Source: Verrucomicrobiaceae bacterium (GTDB taxonomy: Bacteria > Verrucomicrobiota > Verrucomicrobiia > Verrucomicrobiales > Akkermansiaceae). Taken from it: a stretch of 64,000 bases of DNA. The stretch is from assembly GCA_027486655.1 (NCBI GenBank), contig JAIXOR010000016.1:62001-126000 (forward strand), given 5' to 3'. Below are positions 37,496 to 62,754 of this stretch, piece by piece; the first letter of the stretch is position 1; each line of letters begins with the position of its first letter. The notes below the pieces were generated by a model. That model did no database searches and had not been told where the DNA came from. It worked only from the letters and a program-made list of their open reading frames with translations. Made by a program: the position numbers and the translations under genes.

Positions 37496-37541
37496 CCCCC
37501 AAAGTGGGGGTTTTGCGCAAATTCGACGGATTTCGGTGCTT
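37496..37541. promoter_or_regulatory. left copy: CCCCC/GGGGG hairpin plus TTTGCGCAAA palindrome
   Basis: CCCCC-AAAGT-GGGGG-TTTT (37496-37514) is followed by the perfect palindrome TTTGCGCAAA (37512-37521) and ATTCGACGGATTTCGGTG. The palindrome ends 39 nt before the integrase ATG. An inverted, related copy lies before the convergent gene at 39852-39920. The hairpin could also end read-through from the tRNA. Confidence 0.55.
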
Positions 37542-37560
37542 GCGACAACCGCACCCAACC

Positions 37561-41990: not shown

Positions 41991-42280
41991 CCAGAAGACA
42001 GCTATTACATCAGCAGCCTGAGGGCCGACGCCGAAAAGTTCGGCCCCCTCATCCGGCTGCATAGGAATATCGAGAACCAGTGCCACTGGGTAGTTGCTTG
42101 AAGCGTCTGCGTGATAGCTCCCTTCCATTCGTCGCAGGTGATTTTGTATTCTTGTGGTAAAGAATGGCGCGGATTTACTTCGCCGCGAAGGGATCGCATT
42201 CCATGCGGCAATCTTTGCTGAACTGCCTGGCGAACGTCACGCTTGGCAAGAAACTGGCTTTTCTGCTACCGGTGCGGCTG
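41991..42280. other. intergenic/leader region before first sensor kinase
   Basis: There is no convincing gene, apart from the possibility that the kinase starts at an upstream in-frame ATG (42164 or 42203). No copy of the tRNA-fMet 3' end was seen here, so the right boundary of the island is unknown. Confidence 0.4.
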
Positions 42281-45124
42281 ATGCCAATCGGATTTCATCA
42301 TCGGCTTTCTGCGCGTGCGGCGGTTTTACTGGTCGTAGCGGGTTTGATTCCGGCACTTTTTGCCCTTGAGACCCGGCGAATCGATGCCCGGCTCGCCGCG
42401 GATGGCCGCTCGTTCATGATGACAGCCGCAGGCTTTGAGGAGTTTCGCGCCACCTGGTCGGCCACCTTCAAGCGTGACAGCGCTCCAGAGCGCGTGCTGG
42501 CCTCCACGGAGGGCATCGTCACTCCCGGCGCGGTCACGACTATTCGTTTTCCTGAAGAGAGCATCGAGCTTCTGTTCCAACTGGAATCACGCACCGATGC
42601 CCCCGCCATCATGGTCCGCGCCGGCATCCGCAACACCGGCACGGCACCCGTGAGTCTTCTCTCCGCCACCGCAGTTGCGGCGGAATGGAAACTACCCGCC
42701 AATTTGAACGGCTGGATGCTCACTGGGTTTCACCCGGCCACCCCGGTGGTCCAGGCTCTCCGCTTCATCGACAAGCCCCTTCAAGTGCATGAATATGGCG
42801 GATGTTTTCACGCCGATGGAGCAGGGTTCCTGTTCGGTCCGGTTGGGGACCCCACCGCTGATTTGGACTCCCTCTGGGTGAAGGTGGGGGATCACCGGAT
42901 GTCATTCCAATGCAAGGCGGAAATGAGCGGCGTGCGCGTGGATCCCGGAGAGACCCGCTGGGGTCAGCAAGTCGTCTTGCTGGTGGAAAATTCCCGGGAC
43001 GCCCTCCCGCGCTGGGCCGGCTGGACCGGAAAGTCCCATCACGCACGTGCCGAAAGTCCGGCGCTGACGGGATGGGGGACTTGGTACTCTTTCGGTGATC
43101 GTGTCAGCGGCGAGGATGTGCTGGCCGTGGTAGAAACTGTCAGAAAAAAACCGGACCGCCTGCGCCCGGATGTCATTCTCACCGACAAGGGCCATGGAGA
43201 AACAGAACGTTTTCCCGAAGGCCAGGCGTTCTACTCCCGCACCATCGCCGCGACCGGAGCACGTCCCGGTCTCAAGCTCGAATTCAACGGCAAGGTCGAT
43301 CCTTATGCCTACATCCGGCAGGTGGTGCGGGACGGAGTGCGCTTCGTGAAATTGGGCGATATCCGGGGACCCGGAGAAATCCGCAACCCCAAGGAAACGG
43401 ATTTCGAAATGCGCCGCCGCCAGTATGCCGCGGCCCGCGAGGCGGCCGGACCGGATACCTATCTGCTCAATTGCCGACTGTTTCTGGACCGCGCCTCGGT
43501 CGGCTATGTGGACGCCTCCCGCACCGGCCGTATGGCATGGAACAATCAAGTGCTCCCCGCCATCAAGGAGGTCCTGCGTTCCTATCACCTCAACGGCCGC
43601 TGGTTCGCCATCGACAACGACCACTTCTATCTCGGCACGGACACCACGAACGTCAGCCGCATCGGCGGCGGTTGGCCCGTGGCCCGCACTTGGATGAGCA
43701 TGGTCGGCATGTCCTGCGGCGCGGCCTTCGCCTCCGATCCCCTGAACCTGTCGGAGGTCAAGCCCTTCTGGCGCAACCTCGAAGTCATGACCCCGCCCGC
43801 CCGGGAGCAGACCGAAGTAATCGACCTCGGCATCTACTGGCACTGGCCGCGACTCGTCGGCCAGGTGCACCGCGAATGGGGAGATGCCACGGTCGCCTTG
43901 TTGTGGAATCCGGAAGAAGACGAGAGCATCATCAAGCTGGATTTTGCGAGCGCCGGCATGGATGGAAACCAACGCTACGCCGTCTGGTCGTTCTGGGAGA
44001 ACCGCTACCTCGGTCTCGCCCAGGAGTTCTGGAACACTCCCCGCCTGGCACCATCCGCCTCCCAGCACCTCCGGTTCACGCCCATCCCAGCTGCGTTCAA
44101 GCCGGTGCTCATCGGCTCGAACCTCCACATCTATTGCGGCGCGGCAGAAATCAAAACGATCCGCAGTACCCGCTCCTCCATGGCCATCGAGCTGAACGAT
44201 GCCGGGGCCCGCGCGGGCGACCTGTTTGTTTACAGTCACTATCTGCCTGTCCTGCGCTCGGCCTCAGGCCTCGTGATCAGCAACATCGACCAAGCCGGCG
44301 AAAACGTCTGGCGCATCCGCATGCGCGACAGGAAGCACGGCGCAGTCCAGCGTATCGAACTGTCCATCCTGTTGCCTGTCACTCTCCAATGGTGGTTTTG
44401 GATGCTGATAGCCCTGGTCATCACCGGCTTTCTAACAACCGTCTGGCGCTATATGGTTTCCCTGCGTTTGCAGCGGCGTCTGGCGCTTGACCAGGAACGC
44501 TCGCGCATCTCGCGCGACCTCCATGATGGCATGGGCGCGGACCTCACCCAGATCGCGCTCATCGCAGAGATGGCCGCCCGCCAACCGGGCCTGCTTCCCG
44601 CCGCCCGCGAGCAACTCGACCGCATCGTCTCCAGCACTCATGACCTGGCTGGCGAACTCGATTCCGTCGTCTGGGCCACCAACCCGGGCAACGATACATT
44701 GGAACACCTCGTTCAGTATCTGGAACACCACGCCCAGTCCTTTCTTGAAATCGCCGGGATCCGCCTGCGACTCGATATACCGCCCGAACTGCCGGACCTC
44801 ACCATCGGCTCGTCGGCTCGCCATAACATCTTCCTCGCCGTCAAGGAAGCGCTCAACAACATCGTGCGGCACGCGGAGGCCTCCCTGGTTCATCTGAGGT
44901 TGCGCGTTTCGGAACATTCACTCGAACTGGATATCGAGGATGACGGCCGTGGTATCGGAACCCGAACGACTGGTGATCCGTGTGCGGATGGGGTGGCAAA
45001 CATGTCCAAACGGATGGCGTTGATTCAAGGCCGCAGCGAATCCCTTCCGGGAAAGAATGGACACGGCACGCTCGTTCGTTTCAGGGTGCCTCTCGGCGCG
45101 CTGGATTCCCCGCCCCGACCATGA
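42281..45124 (+). CDS. histidine kinase with GH36/melibiase-like sensor domain (copy 1)
   Basis: ~947 residues from ATG 42281; in-frame ATGs at 42164 and 42203 are alternatives. After a signal/anchor segment (RAAVLLVVAGLIPALFAL), residues ~30-690 resemble a GH36/GH27-type alpha-galactosidase: a beta-sandwich, then a barrel with LTGWGTWYSF, LRPDVILTDKGH, FPEGQAFY, and a C-terminal sandwich. The usual nucleophile motif KxD is Lys357-Leu-Gly359, and the acid/base position near ASRTGRM is Met418, so catalysis looks lost. A TM helix (WWFWMLIALVITGFLTTVWR) leads to a HisKA_3 domain (His748 in RDLHDGMGADLTQIA) and an HATPase (N-box VKEALNNIVRHAE, G-box DIEDDGRGIG). It overlaps its response regulator by 4 nt. 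Confidence 0.85.
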   Translation: MPIGFHHRLSARAAVLLVVAGLIPALFALETRRIDARLAADGRSFMMTAAGFEEFRATWSATFKRDSAPERVLASTEGIVTPGAVTTIRFPEESIELLFQLESRTDAPAIMVRAGIRNTGTAPVSLLSATAVAAEWKLPANLNGWMLTGFHPATPVVQALRFIDKPLQVHEYGGCFHADGAGFLFGPVGDPTADLDSLWVKVGDHRMSFQCKAEMSGVRVDPGETRWGQQVVLLVENSRDALPRWAGWTGKSHHARAESPALTGWGTWYSFGDRVSGEDVLAVVETVRKKPDRLRPDVILTDKGHGETERFPEGQAFYSRTIAATGARPGLKLEFNGKVDPYAYIRQVVRDGVRFVKLGDIRGPGEIRNPKETDFEMRRRQYAAAREAAGPDTYLLNCRLFLDRASVGYVDASRTGRMAWNNQVLPAIKEVLRSYHLNGRWFAIDNDHFYLGTDTTNVSRIGGGWPVARTWMSMVGMSCGAAFASDPLNLSEVKPFWRNLEVMTPPAREQTEVIDLGIYWHWPRLVGQVHREWGDATVALLWNPEEDESIIKLDFASAGMDGNQRYAVWSFWENRYLGLAQEFWNTPRLAPSASQHLRFTPIPAAFKPVLIGSNLHIYCGAAEIKTIRSTRSSMAIELNDAGARAGDLFVYSHYLPVLRSASGLVISNIDQAGENVWRIRMRDRKHGAVQRIELSILLPVTLQWWFWMLIALVITGFLTTVWRYMVSLRLQRRLALDQERSRISRDLHDGMGADLTQIALIAEMAARQPGLLPAAREQLDRIVSSTHDLAGELDSVVWATNPGNDTLEHLVQYLEHHAQSFLEIAGIRLRLDIPPELPDLTIGSSARHNIFLAVKEALNNIVRHAEASLVHLRLRVSEHSLELDIEDDGRGIGTRTTGDPCADGVANMSKRMALIQGRSESLPGKNGHGTLVRFRVPLGALDSPPRP

Positions 45125-45780
45125 GCTCCCGCATATCATCCACCCAGCCCCTGACCGTCGCCGTCGTCGAGGACAACGCCGAACTCTGCAACTCCCTGCG
45201 TGGCATCCTCGATTCCACCGAGGGCATGGCCTGCGTGGCCGTTTGCGGCAGCGGCGAGGAGGCGCTTGGCACGCTTCCCCGTTTGAAACCGCATGTCATC
45301 CTCATGGACATCAATCTACCCGGAATGAGCGGTGTGGAATGCGTCCGCGGCTTGGTGGAGCTCATTCCGAAGACCCTCATCCTGATGCTCACCATCCGCA
45401 GCAACATCGATGCCGTCTTCTCCTCTCTCCAAGCAGGAGCCTGTGGTTATCTTCACAAGCCGGTGCATGCCGCAGACTTGCTTTCTTCTGTCCGGGAGGT
45501 CGTCGCCGGCGGTTCTCCGATGTCCGCCGCCATCGCGCGCAAGGTGGTGCAATCCTTCAAGATCCAACCCGCAGCGCGCGCCATGAACGAGATCAGCCTG
45601 CTGCTCACCGAGCGCGAACGCACGGTCCTCGAATATCTGGCCGAAGGCTACATCTACAAGGAGATCGCTGAAGAAATGAAAGTCAGTTGGCACACTGTGC
45701 ACAATCACATCCGGCACATCTACGAAAAGTTGCATGTCCGGAGCCGCTCGCAGGCCGTGGCCAAGTTCCGCGGGGAATGA
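45121..45780 (+). CDS. NarL/FixJ-type response regulator (partner of kinase 1)
   Basis: 219 residues. The receiver has VVEDN at the acidic pocket, phospho-acceptor Asp63 (VILMDINLPGMSGVECV) and Lys in LHKPVHA. The C-terminal LuxR-type HTH has LLTERERTVLEYLAEGYIYK and EIAEEMKVSWHTVHNHIRHI. The ATG overlaps the stop of the kinase gene (ATGA), so the pair is translationally coupled and almost certainly cognate. Probable targets are the surface-protein genes downstream. Confidence 0.95.
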   Translation: MSSRISSTQPLTVAVVEDNAELCNSLRGILDSTEGMACVAVCGSGEEALGTLPRLKPHVILMDINLPGMSGVECVRGLVELIPKTLILMLTIRSNIDAVFSSLQAGACGYLHKPVHAADLLSSVREVVAGGSPMSAAIARKVVQSFKIQPAARAMNEISLLLTERERTVLEYLAEGYIYKEIAEEMKVSWHTVHNHIRHIYEKLHVRSRSQAVAKFRGE

Positions 45781-45896
45781 GTTGGATTCTCCGGCTGTCC
45801 GGTGGTCAAGGGGCGACTCATTATGGATGTGAATGTTTTGGTTGGCTCCGACGTGATGCTTGGCAAACAGTTGGCGTCTATCATAGTCGACCTCCG

Positions 45897-48833
45897 ATGA
45901 CGATCCGGTTCCTCCCACGACTCACCGCCTTCGTGGTGCTTGCGATGGCCGTGGCGCTGGGGAACCAAACGCGTGCTGCGGACGGCCCGGATTCGCGGGT
46001 CGCCGCCGATGGCCGATCCTTCACGATCTCCGCACCGGGCTTGACGGTGCTTCGGGCTGGGTTTGCAGCAAAGGTGGAAATCAACGGTGGGAGACGTTCT
46101 CTCGATTCGACTTCTGGCAAGGTTGTCGAAGCAAAAACGGCGACGGTCTCGAGTGCATATGGTTCCACGAGAGTGACGACTTCGGTCATCCGCTTCGAAG
46201 CGGAGCGGCTCGATTTGTTGTTTCGTCTGGGACAGGTGGCCGGGATGCCGCAGGTGGTGTTGGTGCAGGCGGGGATCCACAATTTCGGGCAGCGCCCGGT
46301 TAGGCTGGCGGAGTTGTTGCCACTGATGATGAGGGATGCCCCGCCGTCAGGCAATGTCTCCGAGGCCGCCCATTTCCTGCAAGTGACCGGCAAGCCGGAG
46401 GAGTGGCTGCTCACCGGGCTGCATGCCAAGACCTCCGTCCAATTGATTCTCGGCGACATGCAAACCGAGGCGTGGATTCATGAACAAGGTGGCATCTACC
46501 GGAAAGACGGGACAGGGTTTCTGTTCGGACCGATTGGCGACCCCGTGAGTTATCTTTCGACGCTCTTCACACCGCAGGGAAATGGGCGGGCCGGAATGAC
46601 GCTGGTTTCCGCGATGGATAAAGTTCAAGTCAATCCGGGACAGGTCCGCTGGGGGCAACAGGCGGGGCTGTTTTTCGAACCGCCGCGGACGGCGATGGCA
46701 CGCTGGGCGGAATGGGTGGCCCGGACGCACGGCTCGCGGACAGCCAAGGGAGCCCTCAGCGGGTGGAGCAGCGTGTATTCGCCCGAACGGATCGCCCGTG
46801 GCACGGACGTGCTCGGTGTGGTCGCGCAAATCGGGAAGTCGGACGGACGGCTGCGGCCCGATGTCATCCAGATCGGCGAGAACTACGAAGTTGATCCCGG
46901 AAAACCTATGGACATCGCTGACTTCTATCCAGAGGGATTTCCCTTCTATGCGCGAAAAATTTCTGCCGCAGGTCAGCGGGCCGGCCTCAAGCTGGATTTT
47001 GACATGTCGAAAACAGACATCACCCGGTGCATCGCGGACGTGCGGCAGGCGGTCCGAGATGGCTTTTCGTATTTGAAGATTGGCTATCACCAGCCCAACG
47101 CGTTTCGCAAGACGCTTGCCGGGGGAGAAAAGACCAGTTTGGAGGTGTTCCGTGAAAACTTCCAGGCTCTCCGGGAGGCAGCAGGGGATGATACCTATAT
47201 TCTGTTTTGCGATTGGTTCACGGACCGTGCCACCTTGGGGCGGGTCGATGCCAGCCGCACCGGCCCCGTCACTACCCGCAGCGGTGTGAGAGATGTCATG
47301 CGGCACGTCCTGAATTCCTATCACCTCAACGACCGTTGGTTCGCGGTGGACAACGACTGCTACTACATGGCGACGGAGCTCAAGGATGTCAGCCCAGTGG
47401 TGGGCGGGTGGCCGCTGGCGCGGACCTGGATCAGCATGGTGGGACTGTCATGCGGCGCGGCGTTCACCTCCGACACTTGGGACCAGGAGAGGTTCAATCC
47501 CTACTGGCGCAACGTCGAGGTGCTGAGCCCGCCCGCAAAAGAGCGCACGGAGGTCCTGGACATCGGCACGGCGAAGGAATGGCCGCGGCTGGTTGGGCAG
47601 GTGAAACGGAACTGGGGCGACTTCACAGTGGCACTGCTTTGGAATCCATCCGAAAAGGAGCAATCGATCATGCTGGATTTCGCAAAAGCGGGGCTCGACC
47701 CGCGGAAGCGCTACGCCGTCTGGTCGTTCTGGGACAACCGTTATCTCGGTTTGGCCCAAGAATTCTGGAGCACGCCGCAGCAGGCTTCTGCGGCTTCACA
47801 GCACCTTCGGTTCACGGCCATTCCGAGATCTTCGGTGCCGGTGCTCATCGGCTCCAATCTCCACATCTACTGCGGTGCCGCGGAAATTGAAACCATCCGA
47901 AGTTCCAGTTCCTCCATGACCATCGCACTGACAGACGCCGGGGCCCGCGCGGGGGACCTGTTTGTTTATAGCCGCTATCTGCCTGTCCTGCGGTCGGCTT
48001 CAGGCCTCGTGGTCACCGCGATCGACCAAGCCGGGGAGAACGTTTGGCGCATTCGCGTGCGGGATCGGGAGTCCAGCCCTGCCCAGCGCATTGAGCTTTC
48101 GATCGATCTTCCCGTCACCCGGCAGTGGTGGTTTTGGTCGATGATCGCCTTGATGGTTGCCAGTATGATCACCGCCGCCTGGCGTTATGTGGCCTGGCTC
48201 AAGCTGGAACGCAAACATTCGCTGGCGGTTGAACGCTCCCGCATTGCCCGCGATCTGCACGACGATCTCGGTGCCAACCTTGCCGAGATCGCCATGATCA
48301 GCGATTTGGCTCAGGAGCAGTTGCCGGAGGATGATCCGTCGCGCCAATCGTTGAATGAGATTTTCACCCGTGCAGAAACGAATGCCCGACGCCTTGGAGA
48401 GATCGTCTGGGCGATCAATCCCGCAAACGACACATTGGAACGCTTTGCCGGATTCCTTTGCAAGTTCACCCAGGATTACCTCGCGCTGGCCCGCGTCGGC
48501 TGCCGCCTCGAAGTGCCGGAACAACTACCGCCCCTGCCGCTCAATTCGATCCAGCGCCATCACCTGTTCCTTGCAGCCAAAGAGGCCATCCACAATGCCG
48601 TGCGGCACGGCAAGCCCACAGAAATTACCTTGCGCCTCAGCAACAGGGTTGATCGGATCAGCATCATCATTGAAGACAACGGCTGTGGATTTGATTCGTC
48701 GCAGCAAGCAGCCTCGGTCCGCGGCACCCACAACATGCGTGAACGCATGGAAAAAATCGGCGGGACCTTCACCTGCCACAGCGCGCCGGGCCAAGGTGCC
48801 ACCGTTACTCTATCCGCTCCTTTGAAATCCTGA
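45897..48833 (+). CDS. histidine kinase with GH36/melibiase-like sensor domain (copy 2)
   Basis: A 978-residue paralogue of the preceding kinase. It starts MTIRFLPRLTAFVVLAMAVA (signal/anchor). The alpha-galactosidase-like sensor (about 40-720) contains LSGWSSVYSPERI, RPDVIQIGENYEV, YPEGFPFYARKI, and SYLKIGYH where KxD is expected (Gly396 replaces Asp); the acid/base region ASRTGPVTT has Val458. The cytoplasmic part has a TM helix (WWFWSMIALMVASMITAAWR), HisKA_3 with His788 (ARDLHDDLGANLAEIA) and an HATPase (AKEAIHNAVRHGK, IIEDNGCGFD). A shared block before the TM (RAGDLFVYSRYLPVLRSASG) is nearly identical to copy 1. It precedes its own regulator by 11 nt. Confidence 0.85.
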   Translation: MTIRFLPRLTAFVVLAMAVALGNQTRAADGPDSRVAADGRSFTISAPGLTVLRAGFAAKVEINGGRRSLDSTSGKVVEAKTATVSSAYGSTRVTTSVIRFEAERLDLLFRLGQVAGMPQVVLVQAGIHNFGQRPVRLAELLPLMMRDAPPSGNVSEAAHFLQVTGKPEEWLLTGLHAKTSVQLILGDMQTEAWIHEQGGIYRKDGTGFLFGPIGDPVSYLSTLFTPQGNGRAGMTLVSAMDKVQVNPGQVRWGQQAGLFFEPPRTAMARWAEWVARTHGSRTAKGALSGWSSVYSPERIARGTDVLGVVAQIGKSDGRLRPDVIQIGENYEVDPGKPMDIADFYPEGFPFYARKISAAGQRAGLKLDFDMSKTDITRCIADVRQAVRDGFSYLKIGYHQPNAFRKTLAGGEKTSLEVFRENFQALREAAGDDTYILFCDWFTDRATLGRVDASRTGPVTTRSGVRDVMRHVLNSYHLNDRWFAVDNDCYYMATELKDVSPVVGGWPLARTWISMVGLSCGAAFTSDTWDQERFNPYWRNVEVLSPPAKERTEVLDIGTAKEWPRLVGQVKRNWGDFTVALLWNPSEKEQSIMLDFAKAGLDPRKRYAVWSFWDNRYLGLAQEFWSTPQQASAASQHLRFTAIPRSSVPVLIGSNLHIYCGAAEIETIRSSSSSMTIALTDAGARAGDLFVYSRYLPVLRSASGLVVTAIDQAGENVWRIRVRDRESSPAQRIELSIDLPVTRQWWFWSMIALMVASMITAAWRYVAWLKLERKHSLAVERSRIARDLHDDLGANLAEIAMISDLAQEQLPEDDPSRQSLNEIFTRAETNARRLGEIVWAINPANDTLERFAGFLCKFTQDYLALARVGCRLEVPEQLPPLPLNSIQRHHLFLAAKEAIHNAVRHGKPTEITLRLSNRVDRISIIIEDNGCGFDSSQQAASVRGTHNMRERMEKIGGTFTCHSAPGQGATVTLSAPLKS

Positions 48834-48844
48834 CTCACACTTTC

Positions 48845-49498
48845 ATGCCTCCTGAACCCGTCACCGTCGCCATTGTTGAAGACAGCCCCGGCCTTCGTCT
48901 CAATCTGGAAACCATTATTCAGCGGGCGGACGGCTTCCAGTGCGTCGGTTCCTTCGAGGATGGCGAGCAGGCGGTGGCCGCCATCCCGGCCCTCCGTCCG
49001 CGAGTGGTGCTCATGGACATCAACCTGCCCGGGATGAATGGTGTGCAATGCGTCGAGCGTCTTTCCCAGAAACTACCGGACACCCACATGATCATGATCA
49101 CCGTGTATGACGACACGGACGCCATCTTTGATTCCCTCGCCGCCGGAGCCGGGGGCTACCTGCTCAAGCCGGTGCGCTCCGCCCAGCTCGTCGCCGCCAT
49201 CAAGGAAGTCCTCGCCGGCGGCGCGCCCATGTCCTCGAACATCGCCCGCCGCGTCATTCAAACTTTCCGGAAACCAGCCCCTGCTGCCGCAGTAGCGACC
49301 GCTCCGGATGGAATGACTCAACTTTCCGCCCGCGAAAATGATGTGTTGGAATTGCTGGTCAAGGGTCTGCTCCAGAAGGAAATCGCCCATCAACTCGGCA
49401 TCAGTTACTGGACCGTGCAAACCCACATCGCCCGGATCTACGAGAAACTCCACGTTCATTCCCGCGCTCAGGCCGTTGCCAAATTCCACGGCGGGTGA
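48845..49498 (+). CDS. NarL/FixJ-type response regulator (partner of kinase 2)
   Basis: 217 residues; receiver with IVEDS, phospho-acceptor Asp58 (VVLMDINLPGMNGVQCV) and Lys in LLKPVRS; LuxR-type HTH with LSARENDVLELLVKGLLQK and EIAHQLGISYWTVQTHIARI. Paralogous to the regulator at 45121. It is the last gene before the beta-strand-repeat surface proteins, which start 206 nt downstream behind a conserved upstream element, so it is the best candidate regulator of that element. Confidence 0.95.
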   Translation: MPPEPVTVAIVEDSPGLRLNLETIIQRADGFQCVGSFEDGEQAVAAIPALRPRVVLMDINLPGMNGVQCVERLSQKLPDTHMIMITVYDDTDAIFDSLAAGAGGYLLKPVRSAQLVAAIKEVLAGGAPMSSNIARRVIQTFRKPAPAAAVATAPDGMTQLSARENDVLELLVKGLLQKEIAHQLGISYWTVQTHIARIYEKLHVHSRAQAVAKFHGG

Positions 49499-49592: not shown

Positions 49593-49626
49593 GCATCCCT
49601 AGTTTAAGGGACATGACGGGATTTCA
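49593..49626. promoter_or_regulatory. conserved 34-bp upstream element, copy 1
   Basis: Contains CCCTAGTTTAAGGG (imperfect CCCTA-N4-TAGGG dyad), then ACATGACGGGATTTCA. It is identical at 33 of 34 positions to the element at 56619-56652. It lies 77 nt before the ATG at 49704 and right after the two-component genes; probable operator/promoter of the first surface-protein gene. Confidence 0.65.
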
Positions 49627-49703
49627 AATTGTGGCATGGTCCAGACGTCGGTTTGATCGACTTCCCGACTCCGCCCTCCGGAAACCCAATCCACGTTCTC
49701 TTG

Positions 49704-51790
49704 ATGAAACGCCAATTCAGTCCATTCCTCCGTTCAGCCCTCTTCGCCGCCACCGTCTTCGGACTCGGCACTGCCGCCCAGGCGGGAACATATAGCTGGA
49801 ACACCACGACTGGTAACTGGGATAGCTCCTCGGCCAACTGGACTGGTGCAGGCTCGACTTGGGTGGATGGCAACGACGCCGTGTTCAACAATACCGCCAC
49901 GGCTTCGACTATTACACTGATTGGCACGATCAACGCGACGAGCTTGCTTATCGGCAATAATGGAAACAACGCCAACTACTCCATCACCGGCGGCACGCTC
50001 AACAACAGCGGCACGCTCATCGTGCAGGGAAGCGGTGGCAACAGCGGAAGTTATACCGCCAATCCCACGACTACAATCAACTCAAGCGTCGCGGTTGCCG
50101 GTTCCACGCTCATCGGACGTGCCAATCTAGCGATTTCCGGAGGTAATTACACGACCAACCGGTTTACTGCCAATCCAACCAGCGCAGACTGGGCCAATAT
50201 AACGATTTCCGGAGGCACCGTGACCGCGACCAACGGAATCGACGGAACTCATGGTACGACCGGCAGCAATGGCAGCACCGCCACCTTCGCGCTCAATCTT
50301 AACGGCGGTACGCTCTATACGCCGTCGATCAGAGTGGCCGACCGGGAGGCAGGCACCAACAACAACGCCTGGCTGACCTTCAACGGAACCACGGTGAAGC
50401 CCACCGCCGATACCACCAGCTTCATCACTCTTTATGGTGGCAACCAGAATTCCTATATCTCCAACGGCGGTGCGATTATCGACACCTATGATGATGTGGC
50501 CGCCACCGCGCGCAACATCACCATCGGCGTCAACCTGAGAAACACCACCGGCCAGACCGGAACGCTGACAAAAAATGGTGCGGGCACGCTGACGCTCTCC
50601 GGAGCCAACACCTACACGGGAACGACGACCATCAACGGCGGCACGTTGGCCCTCCAGAACACGTATGGGAGTTCAGGATTCTCCATGGCCTCTGGCACGA
50701 TGTTGGATTTGAACGTAGCCGGCACTGACCGGAATTGCGCGACCACCACTTTCAGCGGCACGGGAACACTTCTCAAGACCGGTTCTAATATGGTGGTATG
50801 GGGTGCTGGTGCGGCGACATTCAACCTCGGTTCCGGTGCCCTCATCGATGTGCAGGGCGGCACCTTCACGGGTGGCTCGAACGCCAACGAAGTTTGGACC
50901 TCAAACCTGTCCGACCTGAACGTCGCCAGCGGAGCGACTTTCAACACCGTCGAAGCCAATGTCCGGGTCAACAAGATCACCGGAACCGGCACGATCAAGA
51001 CGGGCTATTCTGGCGCCGGATATGCGAACTTCACCATCGGTGTGGACAATGGCAGCAGCACATTCGGCGGTTCGGTCCAAAACTCCACGAGTAACGGCAA
51101 CCTGGTTAAAACCGGATCCGGAACCATCATTCTATCTGGAAACAACAGCCACGGCGGCGCGACCACCATCAGCGGCGGTTCTTTGGAATTCTCCGGCACC
51201 AACACCATCGGCGCGGTGACCGCGAACGGCGGCGGCGTCAGCTTCACCGGCGGCACCACCACCATCAGCGGCAATCTCAGCCAGACCATGGATGGCGGGA
51301 ATGCGATCACGATCATTAACAGCACGGTGACCATGAACCAGCTTTACAGTGGTGCCAATGATCTCGGTTCCATCGGCATGGCGTTCACGATCGGCGCGGG
51401 TGCCGATGTGACGGCGACCGGCGGCACCTTCAGCCGGACCTGGCGCGGTTCCGGCGGCATGTTCCTCAATGGAGGCACGCTGCGCACCTCGTATCTTGCC
51501 GCGAATAGCGCTTCGAGCGGACTCAATGACCGTGGCTATATCCATTTCAACGGCACCAGGATCGTCGCCACGGCGAACCAGAGCAACTTCATCCAGCTTG
51601 CGGGTGGAGCGAACTACGGCAATGAAAACTTCGCCAAACTGAATGCGACCACCACGTTTGATGCGGCGGGATCCAACATCGGAATCGGCGTCGAACTCCG
51701 GGGCACCGGCGGACTCACCAAGGATGGCGTTGGCACGCTGACTCTTTCCGGCGCGAACACTTACACCGGCGGAACCACGGTGAACACTGG
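49704..51790 (+). repeat. paralogous block A (shared with 56766 and 59761 genes)
   Basis: The first ~690 codons are closely similar at DNA level to the starts of the next two genes; stretches such as 50466-50620 and 57526-57680 differ at only a few bases. This is a recent tandem duplication or gene conversion. Sister blocks lie at 56766-58850 and 59761-61860. Confidence 0.8.
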
Positions 51791-54700
51791 TGTTCTCGAA
51801 CTCTCCGGTTCCAACAGCGGCACCGGCCGCATCCGCGGCCCGCTCACCGTCAATGCCGAGGCGGAAGTGCGCCTCACTAACGACGACGGCACGGGCTTTG
51901 GCTACAATGATGCGCGCATCAGCTCGCTTTCCATCAACGGCGGCGCGGTTAGCTCGGCGGGAACCCTCCACATCTGGAACCTCGCGGGCGGCGTGAACCT
52001 CACCGGCGGCTCGCTTTCCAGCAACGACGGCGTTTCCTCGGCCACCGCTCCGCAGCTCGAATGGGGAAACACCACACTCACCAGCAACGCCAGCGCGGAT
52101 ACCGCCACTGTCGCCGGCCGCATCCACATCCGGCGCGACGCGGCCCCGATGCTACGGGTCAACGTGGCTGACGGATCTGCCGCCACCGACCTGCTCATCT
52201 CCGCAGCGCTCACCGAGTCTGGCTCGGGTTGCGGCTTGGTGAAATCCGGTGCGGGCACGCTGAAACTGGGTGGCGCGGTCAATCTAACTGGTTTCCTCAC
52301 CGTTAATGCTGGCACGCTGGACCTCTCCACCGCCACGCTCGGCGAAAGCGCCCGCATCAACGTGGTTTCAGGGGCGCAGTTCATCCCGCCCACCAGCGGG
52401 CTTCCCGCCACGGCGGCTCTCTACGTCAACGGCCAGAAACTATCACCCGGCACCTGGGGCGCTCCGGGCAGCGTCGCCGCAGGACTGGCTCAATTCGAGT
52501 CGCCGGTCATTTCCGGCTCCACCGTGATCACCGTCCCGGACACCGGAATCTCGAACCGCGAACGCTGGAAATCGCTCAAATACGGCATTTTCAGCCACTA
52601 CACTCGCTGGGCCACTGGAACCGGCGACGTGAACGAGGCCGCAGATGCGTTCAACGCGCAGCAATACGCCGACGATCTGGAGCAGGCTGGCGTGCAATAT
52701 GTCGTCTGGACGGCTTGGCATGGGAGCACATTCCCGATGTTCCCAAGCCAGACGATGGTGAAATACGGCTGGCCGAATCGTTTCTCCACCCGTGATACCG
52801 TCAACGACATGATCGACGCGGTGAAGGCCAAGGGCATCCGCGTCTATCTTTACACCCATCCCTATCAGCCGATCACTTCGCCGAACTCGCGGCACAATGA
52901 TTTCATCAACGAGCTCTATGCCGAGCTCATCGCCCGCTACGGTTCGCGCATCGACGGACTGTGGATCGATGAAAACCAGATCAACGGCGACCAGGACAGC
53001 CTGGTGGACTACAAACGCCTGATGACCACCATCAAGGAGGGCAACCCGGAGTTGGTGACGATGCAGAACGGCGGGCAGATGTACACGGTGGACATGGGCG
53101 GCCCGGAGATCGTCGGCAATTGGAATTTCGGTTGGTCCGAGTCCATGTATAACCTGGTCAACCCCGGATCCGGCCCGGGCATGGATGACATGCTGCGCAC
53201 CACCGTGCTTGAAGCTTCGGCGAATTTCGAAGGTGGCGGCATGCATTGGAGTATCGATGGCGTGGCCAACGGCGGATTGGTGGAAACGACTCGCGCCTTA
53301 GCCCTCGGTCGCTACCTCGCGCCGATCCGCTCGTCCGTCTGCGAAACCACCCCAAGCGCCAGTTTTCCCCCGCCTTACAAGGATGGCCGGACCGTCAGCT
53401 ACAGCACGGTGGACTGGGTGGCGACGACCTCGATGGATGAAACCAAGGAATTCATCCATGTCCTCAAGGCTCCTTCCGGAAACACGCTCACGTTGCCCGG
53501 CACCGCGGATGGCAAGGTGTTCAGCAGCGCGACCTTGATAGCCTCGCTGCAACCCGGCGGCGGCACCCAACAATACCTCGGCCTGCCGATGGCCATGCTC
53601 CAGACGCCGCGCGGCATACTGCTGACACTTCCCAGTGGTGTTTCCTGGAGTTCTCTCGATACCGTGATCCAGCTCGACGTTGTTTCTAAAGGTGGCTCTG
53701 GCATGGTCAATGACACCAGCACGTCCATCACTTACAGCGGATCTTCGTGGTATTATCAAAATCACCGCGGGACAGGGGAGTTCAACGATGACATTCATTC
53801 CACAACTGCCAACGGCGATTCATTCACCTTCACCTTCTCCGGCACCGATGTGGAATACATCGCCTCTCGCTCTGCGAATCGCGGTCCGGTGGACATTTAC
53901 ATCGACGAGGTGTTCCAAGCGACGGTGGACCTTTCGAGCGGAACTCCAACCGGCAGTCGCCAGTCGGTTTTCAAAAAGTCCGGTCTTGCCCGTGGCACGC
54001 ACACGCTCCGCTGTGTCAAAATGGGAGGATCCTACATGGATTCCGACGCATTCCGCGTGAGCGAGCTTGTCAATGACGGCGATGCGGATCTGGCCGCCGG
54101 TTTCCCATCCACCTACAACCTCGGTGCCCGCTCAGCCGCTTACACTGGCAGGTGGCAGCCGGGCTCTGGTGCTGTGGCCTGGATCACTCCGGGAACCGGA
54201 ATCCATGCAGGTGCGGAACCTCTAACAGGCTCCCTCCCCACTTCCGGTGATTCGTTCGAGTTTTCCTTCTACGGCACTGCGGCAAGCGTCACGGTGGGCA
54301 GCCAGCATGCCTGGGGCTATTTCTATTTCATGGTCGATGGCGTGTTCCAAACCAATGTCCAGGTCTCCACCAGCAGCGGTTTGCAAACCTTCTCCACCGG
54401 CACGCTGCCGCTCGGCAACCATACGATCAAAGGCATCGTCTGGAGAGCCACGGGCGATCCGTTCCAGCCCGGTGTGAACGGCTTCACCGTCACCCGGCCC
54501 GATTTGTGGAACTACCAGACCGGCCGCGGGTATGGCGAGATCGGCGACGATGTCCACTACACCGACGTCAATCCCGGCGCCTTCTCCTATGCCTTCACCG
54601 GCTCGGGCGTGGATGTGATCACCACCCGCGACAGCGATGCGCGCATGGCCTGGTTCGGCGTTTCCGGCATGGGCCGTTCGGTCGGAGCTCGCCGCAACAA

Positions 54701-56432
54701 CTACTCGCCCGTCCGCCAGACCGGCACCAGCGTCTTCAGCATGCCGAATCTAACACCCGGTGCGCACAGCGTTTCCGTGCAGCATGGCGCGAATACCTCG
54801 GGGCTGAACTTCTCCTTCGCCCGCCTGGCCATCGATGCGCTCCGCGTTTACAAGGGCGAGTCCTTGTCCGCGGCTCCGCTCTATTGGGGTGCGACCGGTA
54901 ACGGCGGCTCCGGCACCTGGGACATCGGAGGCACCGCCAACTGGTTCGATGGCGGGCAGGCGACCGCATGGCAGGACTTCGGCGGAAACGACTATAGCGC
55001 CGTCTTCACTGGCACAACGGGAACGGTGAACCTCGCCTCGAACATCAACGCGAACCGTCTCACCTTCAAAACCGCCGGCTACACGTTGCAAGGCAACAGC
55101 CTTACCCTCAACGGCAGCGCCCCGACTCTCACAACGGACGCCAACGCCACCATCGCCTCCGCGCTCGGTGGTTCATCCGGCCTGACCAAAGCCGGCTCCG
55201 GCACGCTGTCCGTCACCGGTCCTAACACCTACACCGGCGCGACCACCATCGCCGCCGGCACTCTGGCCCTGAATGGCTCCTATGCCACGTCCGGCTTCGC
55301 AATTGCCACGGGGGCGGTGCTGGATTTCAACGCCGCCACCGCGCTGAATCTGCTCGCCGTGACTATTTCCGGCACGGGCACGCTGCGCAAGACGGGTTCC
55401 AACCAACTCCTCTGGGGCTCCTCTGCCGCAGTCTTCGCCCTCGGCTCCGATTCGCTCATCGACGTGCAGACGGGAACCTTTGTCGGTGGTTCCAACGCCA
55501 ACGAAAATTGGACTAACAACCTCGCTGATTTAAACGTCGCCGCCGGTACGATCTTCAAGGGAGTCGAGGCCAACGTGCGCGTCGATGTGCTCACCGGCAC
55601 CGGCGTGATCCGCTCCGGCTATTCCGGAGCCGGCTATAGCGCCTTCACCTTTGGCGTGGACAATGGAACCGGGACCTTCAATGGCAGCCTGACCAATGAC
55701 TCCGCACCGGGCAATTTCATCAAAACCGGCACCGGCACCCAGACGCTCGCCGGTTCCAACACCTACACCGGCACCACCACCATCAACGACGGCAAGCTCA
55801 TCATCACCGGCAGCCTGAACAACACCTTGTCGGTCACCATCGCCACCGGCGCGACTTTGGAAATCTCCGGCTCGCTCGCCGTCACCGGTAGCATCGTCAA
55901 CAACGGCACGCTCATCCTCACTGGCGCGCCGCAAATGAGCGCCTTGGGAACCATCACCAACAACGGCACGATCATCAACCTCGTGCCGGGATTCGCGCTT
56001 CCGCCCAATCTCGTGAACAACGGCTCGATTCAATCCGGACCCGGCGTGTCGGTTGACTACACGACATGGGCTTCCAATGCCGGTCTGGCAGGCGGCCCCG
56101 ATTCCGACGACGACGGCGACGGACTCAACAACCGCAGCGAATACGCCTTCGCCCTCAACCCGAAATCCGGCAGCTCCGCCAATCCGATCACCATCCCGCT
56201 CAAGCCCGCCGACGGCACCTTCACCTACACCCGCCGCGATCCCGCTCTTGGAACGAACCTCGCCTACTCCGTCTGGACCTCCCCGGATCTGGCAAGCTGG
56301 ACGCAAGACGCATCCGCCAGCCAGACCGTGACCTCCACCCAGGGCGACGTGCAATCCGTCCGCGTCACCATCTCCCCAAGCCGTCTCTCCAGTTCCAAAC
56401 TCTTCGTTCAGGTTCGCGCCACCATCCCCTGA
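49704..56432 (+). CDS. giant secreted beta-strand-repeat protein with embedded GH29-like fucosidase domain
   Basis: 2242 residues. A signal peptide (MKRQFSPFLRSALFAATVFG) is followed by a beta-helix-like region of autotransporter-associated repeats (GTLTLSGANTYTGTTTINGG) to ~935. A GH29-like TIM barrel follows (about 951-1330: RWKSLKYGIFSHYTRW, YVVWTAWHG), with nucleophile candidate Asp1089 in GLWIDENQ. Next come three beta-sandwich modules (about 1335-1700; YYQNHRGTGEFNDDIH, YQTGRGYGEIGDDVHY), a second repeat block (about 1726-2115), and a C-terminal domain with DSDDDGDGLNNRSEYAF and YSVWTSPDLASW. No autotransporter barrel or PEP-CTERM is seen. Probably a surface adhesin-enzyme for fucosylated glycan. 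ATG 49704 starts the signal peptide. Confidence 0.88.
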   Translation: MKRQFSPFLRSALFAATVFGLGTAAQAGTYSWNTTTGNWDSSSANWTGAGSTWVDGNDAVFNNTATASTITLIGTINATSLLIGNNGNNANYSITGGTLNNSGTLIVQGSGGNSGSYTANPTTTINSSVAVAGSTLIGRANLAISGGNYTTNRFTANPTSADWANITISGGTVTATNGIDGTHGTTGSNGSTATFALNLNGGTLYTPSIRVADREAGTNNNAWLTFNGTTVKPTADTTSFITLYGGNQNSYISNGGAIIDTYDDVAATARNITIGVNLRNTTGQTGTLTKNGAGTLTLSGANTYTGTTTINGGTLALQNTYGSSGFSMASGTMLDLNVAGTDRNCATTTFSGTGTLLKTGSNMVVWGAGAATFNLGSGALIDVQGGTFTGGSNANEVWTSNLSDLNVASGATFNTVEANVRVNKITGTGTIKTGYSGAGYANFTIGVDNGSSTFGGSVQNSTSNGNLVKTGSGTIILSGNNSHGGATTISGGSLEFSGTNTIGAVTANGGGVSFTGGTTTISGNLSQTMDGGNAITIINSTVTMNQLYSGANDLGSIGMAFTIGAGADVTATGGTFSRTWRGSGGMFLNGGTLRTSYLAANSASSGLNDRGYIHFNGTRIVATANQSNFIQLAGGANYGNENFAKLNATTTFDAAGSNIGIGVELRGTGGLTKDGVGTLTLSGANTYTGGTTVNTGVLELSGSNSGTGRIRGPLTVNAEAEVRLTNDDGTGFGYNDARISSLSINGGAVSSAGTLHIWNLAGGVNLTGGSLSSNDGVSSATAPQLEWGNTTLTSNASADTATVAGRIHIRRDAAPMLRVNVADGSAATDLLISAALTESGSGCGLVKSGAGTLKLGGAVNLTGFLTVNAGTLDLSTATLGESARINVVSGAQFIPPTSGLPATAALYVNGQKLSPGTWGAPGSVAAGLAQFESPVISGSTVITVPDTGISNRERWKSLKYGIFSHYTRWATGTGDVNEAADAFNAQQYADDLEQAGVQYVVWTAWHGSTFPMFPSQTMVKYGWPNRFSTRDTVNDMIDAVKAKGIRVYLYTHPYQPITSPNSRHNDFINELYAELIARYGSRIDGLWIDENQINGDQDSLVDYKRLMTTIKEGNPELVTMQNGGQMYTVDMGGPEIVGNWNFGWSESMYNLVNPGSGPGMDDMLRTTVLEASANFEGGGMHWSIDGVANGGLVETTRALALGRYLAPIRSSVCETTPSASFPPPYKDGRTVSYSTVDWVATTSMDETKEFIHVLKAPSGNTLTLPGTADGKVFSSATLIASLQPGGGTQQYLGLPMAMLQTPRGILLTLPSGVSWSSLDTVIQLDVVSKGGSGMVNDTSTSITYSGSSWYYQNHRGTGEFNDDIHSTTANGDSFTFTFSGTDVEYIASRSANRGPVDIYIDEVFQATVDLSSGTPTGSRQSVFKKSGLARGTHTLRCVKMGGSYMDSDAFRVSELVNDGDADLAAGFPSTYNLGARSAAYTGRWQPGSGAVAWITPGTGIHAGAEPLTGSLPTSGDSFEFSFYGTAASVTVGSQHAWGYFYFMVDGVFQTNVQVSTSSGLQTFSTGTLPLGNHTIKGIVWRATGDPFQPGVNGFTVTRPDLWNYQTGRGYGEIGDDVHYTDVNPGAFSYAFTGSGVDVITTRDSDARMAWFGVSGMGRSVGARRNNYSPVRQTGTSVFSMPNLTPGAHSVSVQHGANTSGLNFSFARLAIDALRVYKGESLSAAPLYWGATGNGGSGTWDIGGTANWFDGGQATAWQDFGGNDYSAVFTGTTGTVNLASNINANRLTFKTAGYTLQGNSLTLNGSAPTLTTDANATIASALGGSSGLTKAGSGTLSVTGPNTYTGATTIAAGTLALNGSYATSGFAIATGAVLDFNAATALNLLAVTISGTGTLRKTGSNQLLWGSSAAVFALGSDSLIDVQTGTFVGGSNANENWTNNLADLNVAAGTIFKGVEANVRVDVLTGTGVIRSGYSGAGYSAFTFGVDNGTGTFNGSLTNDSAPGNFIKTGTGTQTLAGSNTYTGTTTINDGKLIITGSLNNTLSVTIATGATLEISGSLAVTGSIVNNGTLILTGAPQMSALGTITNNGTIINLVPGFALPPNLVNNGSIQSGPGVSVDYTTWASNAGLAGGPDSDDDGDGLNNRSEYAFALNPKSGSSANPITIPLKPADGTFTYTRRDPALGTNLAYSVWTSPDLASWTQDASASQTVTSTQGDVQSVRVTISPSRLSSSKLFVQVRATIP

Positions 56433-56765
56433 TCATCTGTAGCCCCCCGGCATGGCCAATTTATGGCCAATCATGACCATGGCGGACGTCTGAGTTTTTA
56501 ATCTATTGTGCTTTGTTACATAGAGTTCTCTCCGCGTCTCCACCCCAAAGGCTACTCACGGACCGATCCCTCTTTCATTCAAAATCCATCATTTGAAATC
56601 CAAAATTCCCTTCCCCCGGCATCCCTAGTTTTAGGGACATGACGGGATTTCAGAATCCGCCATGTTTGCATTGTTTTTCCCAAGTTCGCATCGGAACACC
56701 CGCTTTTTGAACACAGGTGGGTGATCCATGCATCATTTATAGTTTTCGATCAACCCTCCAACCTC
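56433..56765. other. 333-nt intergenic region between surface-protein genes
   Basis: AT-rich compared with its surroundings and without a gene. It holds a direct repeat ATGGCCAAT (near 56453 and 56465) and the conserved 34-bp element (56619-56652). A promoter for the second surface protein is expected here. Confidence 0.5.
56619..56652. promoter_or_regulatory. conserved 34-bp upstream element, copy 2
   Basis: A perfect dyad CCCTAGTTTTAGGG followed by ACATGACGGGATTTCA; one base differs from the copy at 49593-49626. It lies 113 nt before the ATG at 56766. The flanking sequences differ, so conservation is confined to the element. Confidence 0.65.
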
Positions 56766-58850
56766 ATGAAAACCAAAGCCAATCCCTTCCTCCGTTCCGC
56801 TCTCTTCACTGCCGCCACACTTGCTTGCTGCCTCTCCGCTCAGGCCGGGGTTTACAACTGGGCCACCACTAGTGGTGATTGGGACACCTCCTCCGCCAAC
56901 TGGACCGGCGCAGGCTCGACCTGGGTGGATGGCAACGACGCCGTGTTCAACAATACCGCCACGGCTTCCACCATCACGCTGAGTGGCACGATCAACGCGA
57001 CGAGCTTGCTTTTCGGCAATAATGGGAACAACGCCAATTACTCCCTCACCGGCGGTGCGCTCAATAACAGCGGCACGCTCATCGTGCAAGGAAGTGGTGG
57101 CAACAGCGGCACCTACTCCAATAACCCTACCGTCACGATCAACTCGACCGTTGCGGTTACCGGCTCCACACTCGTCGGACGTGCGAATTTCACCATCTCC
57201 GGCGGCACCTACACGACCAGCCGGTTTACGGCCAATCCCACCAGCGCCGATTGGGGCAACGTGACGATTTCCGGCGGCACTGTGACCGCAACTAACGGCA
57301 TCGACGGCACCTATGGAACGACCGGCAGCAACGGCACGACCGCCACCTTCGCGCTCAACCTCAACGGCGGCACGCTTTACGCGCCGTCGATCAAGGTGGC
57401 CGACCGCGAGGCGGGAACCAATAACAACGCCTGGCTGACGTTCAATGGAACCACGGTGAAGCCCACCGCCGATACCGGGACCTTTATCACACTCTACGGA
57501 GGCAACCAAAATTCCTACATCTCCAACGGCGGAGCGATCATCGACACCTATGATGATGTGGCCGCCACCGCGCGCAACATCACCATTGGCGTCAATTTGA
57601 GAAACACCACCGGGCAGACCGGAACGCTCACAAAAAATGGTGCGGGCACGCTGACGCTCTCCGGTGCCAACACCTACACGGGAACGACGACCATCAACGG
57701 CGGCGCGCTGGTGCTCCAGAATACCTATGCGAGTTCCGGGTTCTCCATTAGCTCCGGAGCGGTGCTTGAGTTGAACGTGGCAGGCAGTGACCGGAATTGT
57801 GCGACAACCACTTTCAGTGGTGCGGGAACACTTCTCAAGACCGGTTCCAACATGGTGGTATGGGGAGCCAGTGCGGCCACATTCAACCTTGGTGCCGGAG
57901 CTCTCATCGATGTGCAAGGCGGCACCTTCAAGGGCGGCTCGAACGCCAATGAAGTATGGACTTCAAACCTTTCCGACCTGAATGTGGCCTCCGGGGCTTT
58001 GTTTGACGGGGTTGAGGCCAATGTCCGGGTCAACAAGATCACCGGAACCGGCACGATCAGGACGGGCTTCGGTGGAGCTGGATACGCGAACCTCACCATC
58101 GGTGTGGACAATGGCAGCAGTACCTTCGGCGGCTCTATCCAGAATTCCACGAGCACCGGCAACTTGGTCAAAGCCGGTTCCGGAAGCATCATTCTCTCTG
58201 GAAACAACAGCTACGGCGGCACGACCACCATCAGCGGCGGCTCTTTGGAGTTCTCCGGCACCAACAGCATCGGTGCGGTGACCGCCAACGGCGGCAGCGT
58301 CAGCTTCACCGGCGGCACCACCACCATCAACGGCAATCTCAGACAGACCATGGATGGCGGGAATGCGATCTCCATCACCAACAGCACGGTGACCATGAAC
58401 CAGCTTTACAGCGGTGCCAATGACCTCGGTTCGATCGGCATGGCGTTCACGATCGGCGCGGGTGCCGATGTGACGGCGACCGGCGGCACCTTCAGCCAAA
58501 CCTGGCGCGGCTCCGGCGGCATGTTCCTCAATGGCGGCACGCTGCGCACCTCGTATCTTGCCGCTAACAGCAGCACGATCCCTTGGCTCAACAACCGTGG
58601 CTACATTCATTTCAACGGCACGAAGATCGTCGCCTCCGCGAACCAAGCAAACTTCATCCAACTTGTGGGCGGAGCGAACTATGCTAACGAAAACTTCGCC
58701 CGACTGGAATCCTTGACCGAATTCGACACGTCCGGATACAACATCGGCATTGGCGTCATTCTCAATGGCAGCGGCGGACTGAAAAAGTCCGGGCGCGGCA
58801 TTCTCACGCTTTCCGGTGTGAACACCTACACCGGAGCCACCAGCGTCGAT
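56766..58850 (+). repeat. paralogous block B
   Basis: Sister of block A (49704-51790) and block C (59761-61860); encodes the repeat region with near-identical peptides such as FALNLNGGTLYAPSIKVADR and ITLYGGNQNSYISNGGAIID. Confidence 0.8.
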
Positions 58851-62367: not shown

Positions 62368-62754
62368 TGCTGAATTTTGAATGTTAGATTTTGAATGTTA
62401 GATTTTGGATACGGAATAGAAGAGAGAAGGCCACGGACTTCGTATGGGTTCTCCTCTCTCTTCCGTTTCGAATTTCATGCTTTGGATTTAGTGCTTTCTG
62501 AATTTTGCCTCTGGAGGGGCAATCCAAGGGCGGTGCGCGTTATGGGTTTCCGTGCGCCGCCCAACCTGTTTCCAGCCTTCTCACTCCGACTTTCCCGAAA
62601 ATTGCCGCCATCCAGAACTGTATGGTTGCAGCTCCATGAGACCGCTTCACCGGGCCATGCCCACACTCGCCACCACGCGACTGCAAGGACCCATCGCGCC
62701 AGCGCCGACCGGAGCGAGTGCGCCACTTCAAACCACCACGAATCGAAAGCTTCC
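62368..62754. other. 387-nt intergenic region with tandem TTTTGAATGTTAGA and hairpin
   Basis: TTTTGAATGTTAGA is repeated in tandem at 62376-62389 and 62390-62403, each containing TGTTAGA. A hairpin of GAAGAGAGAAGG against CCTCTCTCTTC follows (about 62418-62465) and may end the surface-protein transcript. There is no gene; a promoter for the fucosidase is expected in the right part. Confidence 0.45.

Follow-up and report, generated by a model that had tools for sequence, protein, structure and literature searches.

Two adjacent histidine kinases of an Akkermansiaceae genome carry GH36-like sensor domains lacking the catalytic aspartate pair

RESULTS

Two kinase-regulator pairs at one locus

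We analyzed a 64,000-nucleotide stretch of a Verrucomicrobiaceae bacterium genome (family Akkermansiaceae; GenBank assembly GCA_027486655.1, contig JAIXOR010000016.1, here C14, positions 62,001 to 126,000; the whole stretch is called the window), which contains two large genes, HK1 and HK2, for histidine kinases with a pseudo-GH36 sensor domain. These genes and all other features located below by window coordinates as start..end lie on the forward strand. HK1 (42281..45124) encodes 947 amino acids (aa) from the ATG at 42281 to the stop at 45124, within a longest open reading frame (ORF) that opens at 42164. HK2 (45897..48833) encodes 978 aa from the ATG at 45897, in an ORF that opens at a TTG at 45687 and ends at 48833. 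Each kinase gene is followed by its own response regulator gene on the same strand: RR1 (45121..45780), whose ATG overlaps the HK1 stop (ATGA), and RR2 (48845..49498). Pfam finds a receiver (Response_reg) and a LuxR/NarL-type helix-turn-helix (HTH) domain (GerE) in both regulators.

HK1 and HK2 are 46% identical over their full length. Each has a hydrophobic N terminus, an extracytoplasmic domain of ∼690 aa (42362..44398 in HK1, with limits taken from alignments; 45969..48101 in HK2, with limits taken from the model), a transmembrane (TM) segment, and the Pfam domains HisKA_3 and HATPase_c/HATPase_c_2 (44495..45094 in HK1 and 48231..48827 in HK2; HisKA_3 E values of 2.4e-9 and 9.4e-11, respectively). 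The TM segment of HK1, residues 696 to 714, passes a simple hydropathy cutoff of 1.6. Because this arrangement occurs on one polypeptide and recurs in 41 proteins from several genomes, it is not an effect of chance or assembly.

Relatives and their distribution

Relatives were sought in the genome itself, in its genus, family, class, and phylum, in two related groups, and in one genome collection. They fall into three tiers. Proteins of the first are fused to a kinase; the second comprises close stand-alone enzymes, which have none (L006, L100, and L139, 43 to 46% identical to the HK2 sensor); and the third comprises more distant stand-alone enzymes (25 to 31% identical). Four of the 41 fused proteins belong to this genome: HK1, HK2, and two paralogues, designated C17 and C1. 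Across 18 aligned family members of full or nearly full length, identity to HK1 ranges from 41 to 67%. The architecture is uncommon; by our own reading, frames of kinase length (≥940 aa) are present in 9 of 195 genomes of the family and, with the best two or three candidates per genome scored, in 4 of 387 genomes of the phylum and 4 of 384 of the class. Of the 17 records from one search, 11 carry the name of a Verrucomicrobiota taxon in their title, and 6 have simply "bacterium" there.

The counts below leave out L114 (contig end) and L116 (broken frame), both with Ser/Asp at the two catalytic sites; L135, L038, L128, and one piece of L113, in which one or both sites are missing; repeats of the same core sequence, including L138, which repeats L036; and the G164:C50 match and further matches without a locus. 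Proteins with an incomplete N terminus were counted when both sites lay inside (L034, L125, L132, and L113), as was the cut stand-alone protein L052. The near-identical L023 and L024 were both counted; a 90% identity filter leaves 37 of the first 39 fused proteins. L035 and L108, whose H-box missed the script's pattern, were added by eye.

Predicted fold of the sensor domain

Pfam alone misses the glycoside hydrolase (GH) domain of both kinases; Melibiase_C appears only in HK1, at an E value of 0.13, below the cutoff, and a PHROGs scan of the HK1 sensor gave no match. A profile built from 18 family sequences does match Thermotoga maritima GalA by sequence alone (E value, 1.4e-12). An AlphaFold2 model of the HK2 sensor, computed from 18 family sequences, has a mean pLDDT of 80.5 and a pTM of 0.81, with weak stretches at residues 124 to 133, 305 to 314, and 466 to 490. 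In a Foldseek search of the PDB, it places the F. plautii GalN-ase (E value, ∼1e-23) and GH36 alpha-galactosidases on top. VIA-align gives Z scores of 25.5 to a plant alpha-galactosidase, the highest among GH27 enzymes, 22.7 to T. maritima GalA (1zy9; 441 residues aligned, 3.2 Å), and 17 to 18 to larger GH36 enzymes; these alignments cover residues 5 to 622 of the model well and the last ∼90 sensor residues barely.

The full-length model of HK1 is of lower quality (pLDDT, 74.2; pTM, 0.54). It still aligns with 1zy9 (Z score, 18.3; 420 residues, 4.1 Å), and its C-terminal part aligns with DesK (Z score, 16.2; 121 residues, 2.1 Å). It also matches GH97 enzymes, with Z scores of ∼14 that are lower than those to GH36. 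The sensor domain of HK1 and HK2 is thus modeled as a clan GH-D barrel of the GH36 type with GH36 beta domains. A Y_Y_Y domain in front of the TM segment was considered and rejected: Pfam finds none in either protein, and the alignment shows that the enzyme's own C-terminal part takes that place.

Loss of the catalytic pair and variation of the pocket

Numbered from the ATGs given above, HK1 has VKL-Gly359 (43355..43357) at the position of the nucleophile (KxD) and ASRTGR-Met418 (43532..43534) at that of the acid/base (RxGxD); HK2 has LKI-Gly396 (47082..47084) and ASRTGP-Val458 (47268..47270). Neither protein has the Asp nucleophile and Asp acid/base that mark membership in the GH36 enzyme family. 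The original prediction, made by a model from the DNA letters and their ORFs, had named these four residues with the correct numbers and had described, in both ORFs, a secreted GH36/GH27-like region joined to a TM helix, HisKA_3, and HATPase. Pfam, the models, and the alignment bear this architecture out, with sensor and kinase on one polypeptide. The GH-D-type barrel found in both models agrees with the fold that it proposed to check by superposition on GH36/GH27 structures, and the count of the architecture that it called for gives the 41 fused proteins.

The loss that it reported for HK1 and HK2 extends to the whole fused family. None of the 41 fused proteins has both catalytic Asp residues, compared with all 21 stand-alone proteins and all 20 remote GH36-like ones, the last set having been found by similarity to HK2 and so being a sample of matches, not of all GH36. 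The nucleophile position is occupied by N (14 proteins), G (7), S (6), F (3), D, L, Y, and E (2 each), and A, Q, and V (1 each), and the acid/base position by E (9), A (8), D (8), N (5), T (3), V and M (2 each), and S, G, Q, and C (1 each). No fused protein has the pocket Trp, which is replaced in 40 and falls in a gap in 1. The beta3-alpha3 loop, counted as the stretch between the Gly that precedes the pocket Trp and the Lys of KxD, spans 20 to 42 aa in the fused set, versus 44 to 86 aa in stand-alone enzymes and 62 to 84 aa in remote ones; the value of 44 belongs to a single divergent protein, L134, and the remaining stand-alone loops have at least 68 aa. Neighboring residues are retained: the KxD Lys is found in 39 of 41 fused proteins, with Arg in its place in 2; 38 have the Arg of RxGxD; and 40 have the barrel Asp of FAVDND.

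Variation follows the same pattern. Among 23 enzyme-conserved columns, those of the acid/base, nucleophile, and pocket Trp are the three most variable in 37 sensors; a Cys near the acid/base is fourth, and most others are nearly invariant. Across the whole sensor domain, the three columns reach only the 81st to 90th percentile of variability. In the fused set, the 67 columns that are invariant in 18 stand-alone enzymes have a median entropy of 0.30, versus 1.56 over all 685 sensor columns. Loss focused in this way, with the neighbors kept, is what we would expect of a pocket that no longer cleaves and still binds changing ligands. In GH36 enzymes, the residues at issue besides the catalytic pair are the Lys, the Arg, the Trp of GIW, and the Asp of IDDAY. 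Asp387 of T. maritima GalA is the acid/base, and a D387A mutant of this enzyme appears in a PDB title.

Origin of the fused family

In a tree of 57 proteins, the fused set forms one side of a branch (support, 100/99), L006 and L100 form its sister (100/100), and the distant enzymes fall outside. A quick tree with five more proteins recovers the fused clade with a support of 99 and places L139, a 790-aa enzyme with both Asp residues, as its nearest sister (SH-aLRT of 95, as read after rerooting). Since the fused proteins form one clade beside stand-alone enzymes, a single fusion is the simplest reading. The joint to the TM segment and kinase is the C terminus of the enzyme: in five aligned stand-alone enzymes, the protein ends where the fused proteins enter the TM segment, and complete close stand-alone enzymes extend only 2 to 16 residues past the end of the match. 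On the tree, each of the two catalytic columns must have changed 15 times or more. Thus, the fused family probably had a single origin, followed by variation at the former active site, and this suggests a set of sugar receptors that is evolving.

The original prediction held that a glycosidase had been recruited as a sugar receptor and duplicated, giving two ligand specificities in one locus. Descent of the sensor from an enzyme agrees with our data, as the stand-alone sisters keep both Asp residues and the ancestor was therefore very probably a GH36-like enzyme with both. A local tandem duplication does not hold: the closest partner of HK1 in the tree is L027, from another genus (67% identity; support, 100/100), and that of HK2 is the C17 paralogue (85% identity; 100/100), so the two kinases sit in different deep subclades and are old paralogues that are now adjacent. 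Third codon positions of HK1 and HK2 are 72% alike at HK1 residues ∼622 to 672, 56 to 62% alike at 423 to 522, and 20 to 50% alike elsewhere. This mosaic identity between paralogues may reflect past gene conversion. HK2 and the C17 paralogue are likewise mosaic, with third codon positions far more alike in alignment columns 351 to 550.

Kinase output and response regulators

The output half has the features of DesK/HisKA_3 kinases, with the H-box His in 39 of 39 fused proteins, the N-box Asn in 38 of 39, and the N and G boxes of the ATPase. Over the HisKA_3/HATPase part, HK1 shares 36 to 39% identity with its three closest non-GH36 relatives among the kinases of the genome. A cognate LuxR/NarL-type regulator is present for HK1 and HK2. 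We examined 20 loci, namely, 16 of the 17 from one search (L038 is cut in the sensor) plus HK1, HK2, C17, and C1. In 18 of these (14 of the 16), the next gene after the kinase encodes a regulator, and the other 2, L025 and L031, end inside the kinase; where DNA is available, the count is 18 of 18. Pfam finds neither Reg_prop nor Y_Y_Y in HK1 or HK2 at E values up to 1, and RsgI_N, which would indicate anti-sigma output, is not among their Pfam matches; the output is HisKA_3/HATPase. Four other kinases of this genome (L009, L011, L012, and L014) join a HisKA_3 module to LamG-like or F5/8-type domains, and sensor swapping therefore looks common.

Candidate operators

By comparing intergenic DNA, we found two candidate operators. 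The first, O2 (TCCCTAGTTTWAGGGACATGACGG), is an inverted repeat plus CATGACGG that follows RR2 (49596..49619), recurs at 56622..56645, and has a third copy beside the C17 paralogue. The 5.33-Mb assembly holds no further copy at up to 3 mismatches of the 21-base core, and all three lie within 10 kb of HK2 or its C17 paralogue. The other, O1 (GGCATGGCCAATTTATGGCCAAT; 56448..56471), consists of tandem ATGGCCAAT with an 11-bp step. At up to 3 mismatches, it has three copies in the genome, at C14:118449 (window 56449), C14:130423, and C14:162980, all within 60 kb downstream of HK1 and each upstream of an ORF that, by eye, resembles a secreted protein. A single promoter (window 56448 to 56645), upstream of 56721, has both elements, with starts 174 bp apart.

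The pairing of RR1 with O1 and of RR2 with O2 is inferred from the covariation of operator and regulator. O1 occurs exactly, and once, in the genome of L027 (G056), directly after the regulator that is most like RR1 among 14 compared (74% identical overall, 85% in the HTH). A 20-base O1 core at up to 2 mismatches has a match in 2 of 6 genomes with fused kinases (G056, exact; G149, 2 mismatches) and none in the other 4. The regulators most like RR2 among the 14 are those of C17 (90%) and L033 (71%), with all others at or below 54%, and L033 has a 21/24 version of O2 ∼30 bp past its regulator gene; as a control, 20 plain shuffles of another 19-kb locus reach at most 18/24. These cases suggest that RR1 binds O1 and RR2 binds O2.

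A loose O2-like pattern gives 62 matches at up to 3 mismatches, versus 12 in a backward control. Beyond the three exact sites, we judged C1:30009 convincing, with 1 mismatch and a position just after another kinase-regulator pair. The site at C55:58668, with 2 mismatches, falls within a kinase frame, and most of the matches at 3 mismatches look like chance. Hairpin-like elements with differing stems, each followed by GACA(T/A)G(A/G)CAG, also occur near other kinase-regulator pairs (L028:9430-9455, L030:5716-5739, L037 after the regulator, and G000:C1:30009-30032) and possibly represent a family of regulator-specific operators.

Surrounding genes

Downstream of RR2 lies a likely target gene (49629..56432; probable ATG at 49704) for a protein that, by Pfam, has PATR repeats, a GH29-like region, and CE2_N. 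A second likely target, which has O1 and O2 upstream, encodes a PATR protein (56721..59702; probable ATG at ∼56766) and is followed by another PATR protein gene (59761..62367) and a GH29 alpha-L-fucosidase frame that continues past the window end (62395..63999). The intact stand-alone GH36 protein L006 (frame C14:126296-129211) opens 296 bp past the window end, with the first ATG at ∼395 bp; it has an NPCBM insertion and both catalytic Asp residues, is a close relative of the sensors, and matches T. maritima GalA at an E value of 5e-18. Farther on lie a BT_3657-like gene and more GH29 genes. In another family of the class, a stand-alone GH36 protein with both Asp residues is encoded ∼7 kb from a fused kinase (G870 C4:478711-489738; L145 and L138). 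Upstream of HK1, an ORF at window 37504 to 38796 resembles, by eye, a tyrosine recombinase.

This genome has 34 GH29 matches, with GH29 genes beside both the C14 and C17 loci. That the inducer is a glycan containing fucose is no more than a reasonable guess. GH29 linkage is not a general rule for fused kinases: small HMMs, built from three sequences and from one, detect no GH29 in loci L022 to L037 (3.7 to 14.3 kb) or in L099 by the C1 kinase. Carbohydrate genes at other fused loci include GH95 (L022), GH127 and GH59 (L024), GH16 (L027), and sulfatases (L035 and L036), and PATR occurs in L027 and L033.

DISCUSSION

We propose that HK1 and HK2 are sensor histidine kinases in which the sensor is a GH36 alpha-galactosidase-like enzyme minus its catalytic pair, and we give this reading, circuit included, a probability of roughly two-thirds. 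They are derived from GH36 without being GH36 members as enzymes, and by their output half they are DesK-type kinases. Sequences, trees, and models show that a stand-alone secreted GH36-like enzyme was joined, most simply once, at its C terminus to a TM helix and a DesK-type kinase. The fused clade lost the catalytic Asp pair and pocket Trp and has a shorter beta3-alpha3 loop, with the Lys, Arg, and barrel Asp kept. The opened, noncleaving pocket would bind a glycan fragment and alter the kinase through the TM helix; HK1 would phosphorylate RR1, and HK2 would phosphorylate RR2. Bound to O1 (tandem ATGGCCAAT) and O2 (TCCCTAGTTTWAGGGACATGACGG), respectively, the regulators would switch on secreted PATR/GH29 and other genes of the fucosidase-rich region, with both inputs integrated at the promoter upstream of 56721.

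Several observations weigh against parts of this proposal. The TM segment of HK2 (WWFWSMIALMVASMITAAW) falls below the hydropathy cutoff of 1.6 and was assigned by alignment to the HK1 position. Only 6 of 39 fused proteins still have the second Asp of IDDGY, and with the pocket Trp also lost, the ligand need not be a galactoside; the sensor domain could even bind a protein instead of a glycan. The pairing of regulators with operators comes from few cases, and a duplication may be the common source of the O2 copies on C14 and C17, as HK2 and its paralogue are 85% identical. Among ten chosen ORFs scanned with Pfam, those that come next after the regulator gene of L028 and of L033 have no match, and reading the ORFs by eye revealed no obvious carbohydrate genes near L025 and L026. 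Finally, the nucleophile Asp is kept in 2 of 41 fused proteins and the acid/base Asp in 8, never together, so that some could retain residual or altered chemistry.

This last point, with the Asp that directly follows the lost nucleophile in HK1 (KLGD), is what speaks for a sensor that is still an enzyme, in which a nearby or unusual residue does the chemistry and the kinase reports turnover or a covalent or product complex. We consider it very improbable, given that no fused protein has both Asp residues, that HK2 has neither and none beside Gly396 (KIGYHQ), and that the pocket Trp is absent and the loop short in all 41. Less probable still is relaxed constraint alone, with the GH36 remnant as a passive spacer and the kinase sensing something else, such as the membrane, through its TM segment. 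The drift of the catalytic positions among many residues would fit such a spacer; conservation of the rest of the domain, with its low entropy at the enzyme-invariant columns, and the identity of 41 to 67% to HK1 among 18 family members do not.

The dead domain might also be a docking platform for a protein, such as the neighboring intact GH36 or a sugar-loaded binding protein, without itself binding a glycan. Pseudoenzymes often become scaffolds, and an intact relative of the GH36 type is encoded on the same contig here and near the fused gene in G870. We regard docking as unlikely: the former active site is where variation is concentrated, with the neighboring Lys, Arg, and Asp kept, and among 73 genomes of the genus, only 2 of the 11 with a fused kinase have a close stand-alone relative (E value up to 1e-30). 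Returning to glycan sensing by the altered pocket, we tentatively extend it, at somewhat less than even odds, to a broader picture: a single capture of GH36 by a histidine kinase may have given rise to a diversifying repertoire of glycan receptors in Verrucomicrobiota. The dead site would be a pocket that changes from receptor to receptor, with regulator and operator changing alongside, and the two receptors read at the one promoter with O1 and O2 upstream of 56721 would form a two-input circuit for a complex fucose-rich glycan.

Verrucomicrobiota that degrade polysaccharides can encode many sugar-cutting enzymes, as the GH29 matches of this genome illustrate. HK1 and HK2 would represent a receptor class with an enzyme relative still encoded on the same contig and with a readable order of events, from fusion through loop shortening and loss of catalysis to pocket variation. 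The family would provide a series of natural examples in which an enzyme pocket became a receptor, and the two candidate operators are directly testable.

The original prediction knew of no report of this architecture, and in the open-access literature that we searched, which lacks most subscription papers, we likewise found no histidine kinase described as having a GH sensor that is catalytically dead or derived from GH36. Precedent exists for GH domains as sensors; new here are an own LuxR-type regulator and a candidate operator for each kinase. HK1 and HK2 share with GH36 alpha-galactosidases (GalA, 1zy9; AgaA, 4fnr; F. plautii GalN-ase, 8x1b) the fold of the N-terminal beta-sandwich, the barrel, and the start of the C-terminal sandwich, as well as the KxD Lys and RxGxD Arg, and differ from them in the loss of both catalytic Asp residues, the shorter beta3-alpha3 loop, and the added TM segment and kinase. 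With Reg_prop/Y_Y_Y kinases such as L007 of this genome, they have the HisKA_3/HATPase module in common but not the sensor, which in those proteins is a beta-propeller plus Y_Y_Y. RsgI6 of Clostridium thermocellum is described as a former GH10 glycosidase of very low activity that serves as the extracellular polysaccharide-binding sensor of an anti-sigma factor (PMC4711584), with output of this type passing through the anti-sigma factor and proteolysis by RseP (PMC12203970). Its sensor is thus glycosidase derived, as in HK1 and HK2, but it combines GH10 with anti-sigma output, whereas they combine GH36 with a histidine kinase. GH18 receptor-like kinases, tobacco CHRK1 among them, also carry an extracellular glycosidase-like domain on a transmembrane kinase, but CHRK1 is a plant receptor-like kinase, and its domain is a GH18 domain that, according to a review, is predicted to be enzymatically active (PMC5485988).

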